Positions 49,924 through 53,520 of a stretch of DNA of 64,000 bases are shown here, one piece after another. This DNA is from Treponema brennaborense (GTDB taxonomy: Bacteria; Spirochaetota; Spirochaetia; Treponematales; Treponemataceae), in the NCBI GenBank assembly GCA_023666275.1, contig JAMPCJ010000005.1, positions 62,001 through 126,000 on the forward strand. Direction: 5' to 3'. Below the pieces are notes generated by a model that made no database searches, was not told the origin of the DNA, and saw nothing but the letters and a program-made list of their open reading frames with translations. The first letter of the stretch is position 1; each line of letters opens with the position of its first letter. Made by a program: the position numbers and the translations under genes.

Positions 49924-51855
49924 TTATATATTTTCCGTATTTTCCGCCGCAGTATTTTTCACCGCGCGGCAGATAAACTCCCCGTATTTTTCGGCTTTTA
50001 CCGCACCGATGCCGTATATATTCAGAAGTTCTGTTTTTTCCGCCGGCTTTTTCACTGCCGCGTCTTCAAGCGTTTTGTCGCTGAAAATGACATACGGCGG
50101 AACCTCGGCTTCATCCGCCAGTTTCCTGCGGATTTTCCGCAATTCGCTGAAAATTGCCTGTCCCCATTCATCATTTGCGGCAAGGTGCGCTGCGCCGCGC
50201 TTTTCCGCAGTCTGCGCGGGAGCAAAAGAGGCTTGCGGAACACTGCGCTTTTCGGACGGAACAAACGGCAGATACACAGAGCCGCGGGCAAACAGCGTAT
50301 CTTTTGCGTCGCGGGTAAGCGAAAGCACGCCGTATTCTTCCGATTTGCGCAAAAAACCGGCTTCTGTCAGCAGACGGACAAGCTCGAACCAATCATCACG
50401 CGTGTATTCTCTGCCGATTCCCCAAGTTGAAAGACGGTTGTGCCCGTTATCCAAAATACGCTGCCGGCGGGAACCGAGCAGGACATCAATAATGTACGCC
50501 GCACCGTAGCGTTCATTGGTCCGCATAATGCAGGAAAGCAATTTTTGAACGGGAACCGTAACATCTGTATCGGCAGCGGGAAGAGAATCGCACACATCGC
50601 AGCAGCCGTTTTCCTGCGGCGTTTTAAACTGTTCATTCGGCGGATACGATTCTCCGAAGTATGCAAGCAAATACGCGCGGCGGCACGTTCTGCATTCAGC
50701 ATAATCAGTCATCGCTTTGAGCTGCTGTTCCGCTGCCGCACGTTCTTCCGGAGTTTTATCCTTAAAAAAGAATCGGATTTTCCGCGTATCGGCATAGCTG
50801 TAAAAAAGCACGGCACGCGCGGCATCTCCGTCCCGTCCTGCGCGTCCGATTTCCTGATAGTATTGTTCTATGCTTTTCGGCAAATCGAAGTGAATCACGT
50901 AGCGGACATTCGGTTTATTGATTCCCATGCCGAACGCGACTGTCGCGACAATAACCGGAATATCATCGCGGACAAAGCGTGTCTGGTTTTCCGCGCGGGC
51001 AAAATCGCTTAACCCCGCATGATACGGCAGTGCCTCAATCCCGCTGCTGCATAGCGCGGCTGTCAGCTCATCCACTTGGCGGCGGGAAAAACAATACACA
51101 ATTCCGCTTTGTTCTTTGCGGGAACGGATAAATTCTATCAGCATTTGCTGCGCCCGTTTTCCGCCGCCGGCACCCGTTTTGCCGACAACTTCCAAATAAA
51201 TATTCGGGCGGTTAAAACTTGATACAAATTCCTTGAAGCGGCTGCCGCTTTCGGAATGCCTGCGCGGCGCAGCATCCGCAGATGTCATGCCGAGGCAGCG
51301 CTGTATATCGCGCCGCACTTTTACCGTTGCCGTAGCCGTCAATGCAAGGCAAACAGCATCGGGAACAAGCTCCCGCAAATGAATTATTTGGCGGTACTCC
51401 GGTCTGAAATCGTGTCCCCATTCGGAAATGCAGTGCGCTTCATCGATTGTCAGGCAGTCGACGCGGACAGCGCAAAGCAAATTCCGCAGCCGTTCCGTGG
51501 CAAGCGTTTCCGGCGCAACGTACAGCAGCTTTACGCTTCCGTCGCGGACATGTTCCATATTTTTGCGATATGTATCTTTATCAAGCGAACTGTTCAGAAA
51601 AACCGCAGGAATGCCAATAGCATCGAGCTGGGCAACTTGATCCTGCATCAGCGCAATAAGCGGCGAAACCACAACCGTCAAACCGTGAAAAAGCATTGCG
51701 GGAATTTGATAGCACAGCGATTTTCCGCCGCCGGTAGGCATAACCGCGAGTGTGTCTTGCCCCGCAAGTACGGACGTGATAATTTCTTCCTGCCCCGCAC
51801 GAAACGAATTATAGCCGAAATACTGTTTCAGAACAGCAAGCAGTTTTTCATGCAT
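49924..51855 (-). CDS. recQ: ATP-dependent DNA helicase RecQ
   Basis: A 643-residue 3'-5' helicase. It has motif I MPTGGGKSLCYQIPAM, the DEAH box TIDEAHCISEWGHDFRPEY with the RecQ aromatic loop, motif VI QEIGRAGRDG, zinc-binding cysteines CRTCRR and CCDVCD, a winged helix and a C-terminal HRDC domain (KPAEKTELLNIYGIGAVKAEKYGE). It processes stalled forks and recombination intermediates. No Shine-Dalgarno: TATACT ends 7 nt before the ATG, with TGGACA at 18 bp, in a promoter interlocked with the divergent FAD-oxidoreductase gene. It converges on the EAL gene with a gap of 17 bp. Confidence 0.97.
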   Translation of the reverse strand: MHEKLLAVLKQYFGYNSFRAGQEEIITSVLAGQDTLAVMPTGGGKSLCYQIPAMLFHGLTVVVSPLIALMQDQVAQLDAIGIPAVFLNSSLDKDTYRKNMEHVRDGSVKLLYVAPETLATERLRNLLCAVRVDCLTIDEAHCISEWGHDFRPEYRQIIHLRELVPDAVCLALTATATVKVRRDIQRCLGMTSADAAPRRHSESGSRFKEFVSSFNRPNIYLEVVGKTGAGGGKRAQQMLIEFIRSRKEQSGIVYCFSRRQVDELTAALCSSGIEALPYHAGLSDFARAENQTRFVRDDIPVIVATVAFGMGINKPNVRYVIHFDLPKSIEQYYQEIGRAGRDGDAARAVLFYSYADTRKIRFFFKDKTPEERAAAEQQLKAMTDYAECRTCRRAYLLAYFGESYPPNEQFKTPQENGCCDVCDSLPAADTDVTVPVQKLLSCIMRTNERYGAAYIIDVLLGSRRQRILDNGHNRLSTWGIGREYTRDDWFELVRLLTEAGFLRKSEEYGVLSLTRDAKDTLFARGSVYLPFVPSEKRSVPQASFAPAQTAEKRGAAHLAANDEWGQAIFSELRKIRRKLADEAEVPPYVIFSDKTLEDAAVKKPAEKTELLNIYGIGAVKAEKYGEFICRAVKNTAAENTENI

Positions 51856-51892
51856 GACACAAAGTATACAGAAGTGTATACTTACTTGTCCA
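51854..51892. promoter_or_regulatory. Interlocked divergent near-leaderless promoters, recQ / FAD oxidoreductase
   Basis: Plus strand: ATGACA (51854-51859), 17 bp, TATACT (51877-51882), then 9 nt to the ATG at 51892. Minus strand: TGGACA (51892-51887), 18 bp, TATACT (51868-51863), then 7 nt to the recQ ATG at 51855. Each -35 overlaps the other gene's start codon. Confidence 0.75.
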
Positions 51893-53520
51893 TGATATAC
51901 GAACTGACAATCACGGTGCGCCCCGAAGACGAAACGAATAAAAAACTGATACGGAAAAAAATCGCAGAAAAACTTTCGGAAAAAAATCCGATGTCTGCGC
52001 AGGACAGCAGCTGTTCATTTGTTCTCGAAAAAAAATCTATCGACGCGCGGCACGGAAAAATAAAGCTTCAATTAAAATACGCAGTCCACATCGGAGAAGA
52101 TTCGCAGGAATGCATGCAAGACGATGCCGCAAAAAAACCATTCGCTCCCGCATGGAAAAACGCCGATCCGAAAAAGCGCGTCGTCATCATCGGCTGCGGT
52201 CCCGCAGGGCTTTTCGCCGCGCTGCGGCTTCTTGAAAACGGCATTACGCCTGTCATTCTCGAACGCGGAACCGATACGGCGCATCGCAAAACAGATATTG
52301 CAGCTATCAGCCGGACGCAGACAGTCAATGCCGATTCAAATTACTGTTTCGGCGAAGGCGGCGCCGGCACTTTTTCGGACGGAAAACTGCGCACACGTTC
52401 CCGAAAACGCGGCAATCCGTCGCGCATTTTGGAAATTCTTCATTATTTCGGAGCAGATGAATCTATTTTAACCGACGCGCATCCGCATATCGGCACAGAC
52501 AAACTGCCTGTTATTATCAATGCGCTCACGTCGGCAATACGCTCATTCGGCGGGCAAATCCATTTTAATACAAAATGCGAATCGCTGATTATTTCAAACA
52601 ACAAAGTCTGCGGTGCTGATGCCGTGAATACAATATCAGGAAGCCGCAGCAGCTTTGAGGGGCGCGCCGTCATCGCTGCTTCGGGACATTCTGCGCCGGA
52701 TATATACATGATGCTGGACGGCATCGAAAAAAACATCGGCGGCCGCATTCTGGAACCCAAAACATTTGCAATGGGCGTTCGCGTAGAACATCCGAGAAGC
52801 ATTATCGACGCAATTCAATATCACGGGAAGGCGCGCAGCCGAGTGCTTCCCGCTGCGGAATATCAGCTTGCCGCGCAAATCGACGGACGCGGCGTATATT
52901 CATTCTGCATGTGTCCCGGAGGACTTGTCGTGCCTTCCGCGGCGGACAACAGCAGCATCGTGGTAAACGGCATGTCGCCCGCAAGCAGGAACACGCGCTG
53001 GTCAAACGCCGCCATTGTCGCAGAAACACGACCGGAAGACATTCCCGAACAATTCGGCAGCGGCGCGCTGAGCGGACTTCGATACCGCACATGGATAGAA
53101 CAAACCGCACAGGCAGAAAGCGGCGGCGGACAAAAAGCGCCCGCACAAATGCTTGAAGATTTTCTTGCCGGAAAAAAATCGGCGGCATTGCCGGAATCTT
53201 CATATACGCCGGGGCTTGTGTCTTCCCGCCTCGACAGATGGCTGCCGGAACATATAACATCCCGCCTGAAACAAGCGTTCCTGCAATTCAACGCAAAAAT
53301 GCGCGGATTTATTTGTCCCGAAGCGCTTTTAATCGCACCGGAAACGCGTACTTCTTCGCCGCTGCGTATTTTGCGGGAAAACACAACATTCGAAAATCCG
53401 TCGCTGCGCGGATTGTTTCCCGCAGGAGAAGGCGCAGGATATTCGGGTGGAATCGTTTCTTCCGCCATTGACGGCGAAAACGCGGCATGCGCTGTCTGCA
53501 ATACGTATTTTCGGGAATGA
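51892..53520 (+). CDS. FAD-dependent oxidoreductase (uncharacterised dehydrogenase family)
   Basis: A 542-residue flavoprotein. After an ~90-residue N-terminal part there is the Rossmann FAD site VVIIGCGPAGLFAALRLLENG with an acidic end (LERG), then FGEGGAGTFSDGKLRTRSR, AVIAASGHSAPDIY, and the C-terminal FAD-binding GLFPAGEGAGYSGGIVSSAIDG. The order fits the widespread NAD(FAD)-dependent dehydrogenase group often annotated COG2509; its substrate is unknown. The frame is open 212 codons upstream inside recQ antisense, but the promoter at 51854-51882 and MIYELTITVRPEDET set the start at 51892. There is no Shine-Dalgarno. Confidence 0.88.
   Translation: MIYELTITVRPEDETNKKLIRKKIAEKLSEKNPMSAQDSSCSFVLEKKSIDARHGKIKLQLKYAVHIGEDSQECMQDDAAKKPFAPAWKNADPKKRVVIIGCGPAGLFAALRLLENGITPVILERGTDTAHRKTDIAAISRTQTVNADSNYCFGEGGAGTFSDGKLRTRSRKRGNPSRILEILHYFGADESILTDAHPHIGTDKLPVIINALTSAIRSFGGQIHFNTKCESLIISNNKVCGADAVNTISGSRSSFEGRAVIAASGHSAPDIYMMLDGIEKNIGGRILEPKTFAMGVRVEHPRSIIDAIQYHGKARSRVLPAAEYQLAAQIDGRGVYSFCMCPGGLVVPSAADNSSIVVNGMSPASRNTRWSNAAIVAETRPEDIPEQFGSGALSGLRYRTWIEQTAQAESGGGQKAPAQMLEDFLAGKKSAALPESSYTPGLVSSRLDRWLPEHITSRLKQAFLQFNAKMRGFICPEALLIAPETRTSSPLRILRENTTFENPSLRGLFPAGEGAGYSGGIVSSAIDGENAACAVCNTYFRE

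Follow-up and report, generated by a model that had tools for sequence, protein, structure and literature searches.

Bidirectional promoters, as defined by Warman et al. (PMC10268837), have divergent transcription start sites 7 to 25 bp apart, with -10 elements and starts that overlap reciprocally. It is accepted that RNA polymerase binds such tightly spaced pairs in one direction at a time (PMC12825309). In five E. coli bidirectional promoters with starts 10 to 23 bp apart, however, no measurable competition between directions was found at basal activity, and interference appeared only upon strong activation of one direction (PMC12825309). Known bidirectional promoters often join functionally linked genes. 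A second relevant class comprises the TA-led genes described by Zheng and co-workers in 2011, in which a box resembling TATAAT lies about 10 bp 5′ of the start codon and no Shine-Dalgarno-like sequence is present. Leaderless TA-led genes occur in 6 of 18 Spirochaetes genomes and make up a mean of 3.9% of genes (PMC3160421).

Here, we analyzed a divergent gene pair within a window of 64,000 nucleotides, which is part of a 2.35-Mb draft genome from the Treponemataceae. One gene encodes the DNA helicase RecQ, which scored 681 bits against its family profile (cut-off, 640) and possesses the helicase, RQC, zinc-binding, and HRDC domains. The other encodes a flavin adenine dinucleotide (FAD)-dependent oxidoreductase, whose C-terminal domain was recognized with 229 bits. 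Exactly 36 bp (51856-51891) lie between the two ATG codons, as the initial annotation had stated. The start of the FAD gene was assigned to position 51892 because orthologs begin at the residue encoded there. The + strand frame of this gene is open for a further ~210 codons on the 5′ side, up to an ATG at 51256, and this region (51256-51891) runs antisense to recQ. The extension is not used in orthologs, and automatic annotation could misplace the FAD start.

A promoter scan revealed a sigma-70-type promoter for each gene, ATGACA-17 bp-TATACT on the + strand for the FAD gene and TGGACA-18 bp-TATACT on the - strand for recQ (Table 1). Each matches the consensus at 10 of 12 positions, with the -35 hexamers matching at 5/6 and 4/6. 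The two are divergent and overlap (51854-51882, + strand; 51892-51863, - strand). Because both promoters lie hard against the start codons, they interlock, each -35 hexamer reaching the first codon of the other gene by 2 bases or 1 base. This arrangement bears out the initial proposal of two good promoters whose -35 elements overlap the opposite start codon. Within 6 kb, counting both strands, only three 10/12 sites occur, and two of them are these promoters. In simulated gaps of 36 bp, the chance of two divergent promoters of at least 10/12 was 2e-5 with the composition of the gap itself and 3e-6 with that of the window; two facing 10/12 promoters would still be unexpected by chance even given the few hundred divergent pairs in a genome. 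From the positions of the -10 hexamers, the transcription starts of recQ and the FAD gene are predicted to lie about 33 bp apart. A literature search found no published start-site maps for treponemes.

Table 1. Features of the recQ/FAD gap and of two close divergent pairs elsewhere in the same genome. Coordinates are those of the window, except for the last two rows
Feature	Coordinates	Strand	Remarks
recQ, ATP-dependent DNA helicase, 643 aa	49924..51855	-	ATG 51855-51853; TIGR01389
FAD-dependent oxidoreductase, 542 aa	51892..53520	+	ATG 51892-51894; PF21688 C-terminal domain
-35-like hexamer ATGACA, FAD gene	51854..51859	+	Promoter scan; 2-base overlap with recQ start codon
-10 hexamer TATACT, FAD gene	51877..51882	+	Promoter scan; end 9 nt from FAD ATG
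-35-like hexamer TGGACA, recQ	51892..51887	-	Promoter scan; 1-base overlap with FAD start codon
-10 hexamer TATACT, recQ	51868..51863	-	Promoter scan; end 7 nt from recQ ATG
Predicted recQ transcription start	51856 (±1-2 nt)	-	Inferred; 7 nt past -10 hexamer
Predicted FAD transcription start	51889 (±1-2 nt)	+	Inferred; 7 nt past -10 hexamer
22-bp inverted repeat, AAGTATACA-GAAG-TGTATACTT	51862..51883		Arms mainly the two -10 boxes
Abhydrolase_3 / homoserine O-succinyltransferase, divergent, 47 bp apart	G000:C12:132257-132305		Near-leaderless -10s on both sides
HAD hydrolase / GDSL lipase, divergent, 64 bp apart	G000:C12:43120-43185		TATAAT 8 nt and TATGAT 6 nt before the ATGs, respectively

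Like the E. coli bidirectional promoters, the recQ/FAD gap would give rise to two divergent mRNAs from a segment smaller than one polymerase footprint, and its sequence is pseudo-symmetrical, with binding expected in one orientation at a time. In the E. coli class, however, the -10 is shared and the starts are 7 to 25 bp apart, whereas the two -10 elements of the recQ/FAD gap are separate, do not overlap (51863-51868 and 51877-51882), and stand 8 bp apart. With predicted starts ~33 bp apart, the gap would fall outside the class of Warman et al. Furthermore, no functional link such as often accompanies known bidirectional promoters is evident between recQ and the FAD gene. Both genes do fit the description of TA-led genes: each start codon is preceded, at a distance of about 10 bp, by a TATAAT-like signal, and no Shine-Dalgarno-like sequence is visible 5′ of either ATG. 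There is no essential difference from that class, and the locus can be viewed as two TA-led genes placed head to head.

The promoters were then compared with those of relatives, taking one upstream region per distinct ortholog in the family and scoring as -10-like any hexamer with at least 5/6 matches to TATAAT or TATACT that lay 4 to 11 nt before an in-frame start. Such a box was present in 45 of 53 FAD orthologs (5.4 expected from dinucleotide shuffles; z, 18.5) and in 25 of 34 recQ orthologs (5.1 expected; z, 12.2); for recQ, the start was picked among several candidates, which raised the expected count, and the shuffles were given equal freedom. For both genes, the boxes were mostly 6 to 7 nt before the start, and the distances of 7 nt (recQ) and 9 nt (FAD) seen here are consistent with this pattern. 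With the -10 boxes held fixed, the likeness to TTGACA across spacers of 8 to 29 bp peaked at 17 bp for both genes (mean, 2.73/6 for FAD and 2.48/6 for recQ, versus ~1.5 elsewhere), although the spacing of the -35 had played no part in picking the -10 boxes. Conservation of the -35 itself is weak across the orthologs. The FAD -10 box, usually 6 to 9 nt before the ATG (for example, in loci L006, L008, L010, L022, and L026), shows clearly that the near-leaderless position of a promoter can be conserved. No -10 box was evident by eye 5′ of the FAD gene outside the Treponemataceae.

The ortholog evidence for the promoters is stronger than the consensus match. Together, the -10 boxes and the spacer peak point to housekeeping-type promoters on both genes that would start transcription at the ATG itself or only a few bases away. 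Near-leaderless transcription thus appears to be an ancestral trait of recQ and of the FAD gene, separately, and compared with the TA-led class in general, the recQ/FAD locus has a box on both orthologous genes that is kept through most of the Treponemataceae sampled. Given the 9 and 7 nt that separate the ends of the -10 hexamers from the ATGs, the predicted leaders are ~1 to 4 nt for FAD and 0 to 2 nt for recQ, and both mRNAs would be translated in a leaderless manner. The near-leaderless mRNAs proposed in the initial annotation are therefore supported as a prediction, in that leaderless-type -10 boxes are kept in relatives for each gene separately. In line with this, in a 464-kb sample of the same genome, on which the genome-level promoter figures rest, long open reading frames showed a peak of -10-like hexamers 6 to 7 nt 5′ of their first ATG, and a -10-like box at 5 to 8 nt preceded 10.3% of genes versus 2.0% of internal ATGs. 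The 9-nt distance of the FAD -10 places it at the edge of this leaderless peak.

The pairing of the two genes, on the other hand, is not conserved. As the genus is represented by a single genome in the collection, the comparison was made beyond it, across the family. In two family-wide searches of 274 genomes each, read by eye, no recQ-FAD adjacency was seen in other Treponemataceae among the matches listed; there, the two genes were on separate contigs or at least ~15 kb apart. A scan of named genomes also returned no such arrangement. In a tblastn test of all loci retrieved, both genes occurred together only in the genome studied here and in five loci from the Bacteroidota, where they are not divergent. 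Conservation of the 36-bp arrangement in relatives, a check suggested at the outset, thus turned out negative, the genes never being neighbors in the other Treponemataceae examined. Since the two are not neighbors in any other family member examined, the interlock seems to have arisen incidentally through a rearrangement. In a distant phylum, the two are again found near each other, although in another layout: in four flavobacterial loci of the Bacteroidota (L085, L086, L090, and L094), recQ and the FAD ortholog are on the same strand, ~0.8 to 2.2 kb apart, and in the fifth (L107) the recQ match is partial.

The gap is very probably made up of two ordinary housekeeping-sigma promoters back to back, each ancestral to its gene, that were joined by a lineage-private rearrangement. 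Under this explanation, recQ and the FAD gene would each have inherited a compact near-leaderless promoter from a Treponemataceae ancestor, in which a TATACT box lies 7 to 9 nt from the ATG and is preceded by a -35 at a spacing of about 17 bp, and a rearrangement private to this lineage would have brought the genes head to head. Each time, polymerase would occupy the gap in a single orientation, initiate no more than a few bases from the ATG, and then escape, after which the promoter would be free again. As long as firing rates are ordinary, the expression of recQ and that of the FAD gene would be largely independent.

The predicted starts lie well inside one polymerase footprint, so occupancy of the gap must be mutually exclusive at any instant if these positions are correct; the initial idea that polymerase could not be engaged in both directions simultaneously is a consequence of this geometry. 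No support was found for the further claim of exclusivity between recQ and the oxidoreductase: E. coli pairs that are spaced even more tightly show no basal competition, and the pairing is unconserved. By analogy with those E. coli pairs, near-independent expression is expected, with mutual interference arising only under strong induction of one side. An evolved exclusive switch, in which the interlock was selected so that firing of recQ represses the oxidoreductase and vice versa, would make use of the one-polymerase geometry and of the competition that strong activation of one direction brings about in E. coli (PMC12825309). Yet the pairing is missing from every other member of the Treponemataceae examined, which leaves no sign of selection for exclusivity, and each promoter is present without the other in relatives. 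In addition, the five E. coli pairs, although tighter, do not compete at basal activity, no functional tie connects a RecQ helicase with an FAD oxidoreductase, and similar interlocks at other places in the genome link genes that are unrelated; such a switch is therefore extremely unlikely. We are very doubtful, too, of a reading in which the interlock is lineage specific and competition couples the repair helicase to the flavin oxidoreductase upon induction of either side, possibly with the help of a dimeric regulator bound to the 22-bp inverted repeat. The recQ/FAD arrangement is tidy but ordinary, with no evidence for opposed switching.

The sequence symmetry of the gap invites other explanations. 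A strict bidirectional promoter, in which both directions would use a single symmetric -10, is suggested by the self-complementary GTATAC, which gives each arm a -10-like box on both strands; nevertheless, each gene has its own 6/6 TATACT and its own -35, and the spacing of the predicted starts is beyond the limit of the bidirectional class (PMC10268837), making a shared element hardly credible. The inverted repeat might also be an operator, on which a dimeric repressor would cover both -10 boxes and silence both genes together. Its perfect 9-bp arms are centered in the gap, they match for 3 bp beyond what the two hexamers require, and a genome-wide search found no other perfect copy. Divergent pairs often have a common repressor site, as at acrA/acrR, where AcrR represses both directions. 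However, when the hexamers and start codons were fixed and the other bases were shuffled, the symmetry of the whole gap was typical (p, ~0.55) and hence no greater than these elements impose. TATACT preceded by G is nearly self-complementary, so that facing -10 boxes make a repeat by themselves, and the repeat would seem to be largely explained by the two boxes. The next best copies, two with 2 mismatches each, lie in unrelated single promoter-like regions with no common theme. The genome-wide search found no regulon for the repeat, and no such repeat was seen 5′ of the orthologs. A repair helicase would be expected to be under LexA control, but no LexA was found either, there being no PF01726 match in this 97.7% complete genome. 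With no regulon and with the symmetry accounted for by the promoter hexamers, the operator was rejected as a very improbable candidate. SOS control was considered as a separate candidate and rejected, the LexA repressor not having been found. Finally, a consensus match is by itself no proof of a promoter, and the main promoter of one gene could lie elsewhere, for example inside the other gene, with the box in the gap weak or silent. The family-wide retention of the box at leaderless distance and the peak of -35 likeness at a spacer of 17 bp argue against this, and we consider it improbable.

Two ordinary promoters placed back to back would make the recQ/FAD gap a small, clean example of how compact leaderless promoters may let genes move, pack head to head, and keep their own start signals. 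More generally, two unrelated genes of housekeeping type have kept near-leaderless promoters across much of the Treponemataceae sampled, and about one-quarter of the genes in divergent pairs in the 464-kb sample are similar, having a near-leaderless -10 at 5 to 10 nt. Four other divergent pairs in that sample carry such a box on both sides, close to the 3.1 expected under independence; the recQ/FAD pair is absent from this count because the FAD start had been set automatically at an ATG further upstream. Two of the four two-sided pairs are close together (Table 1).
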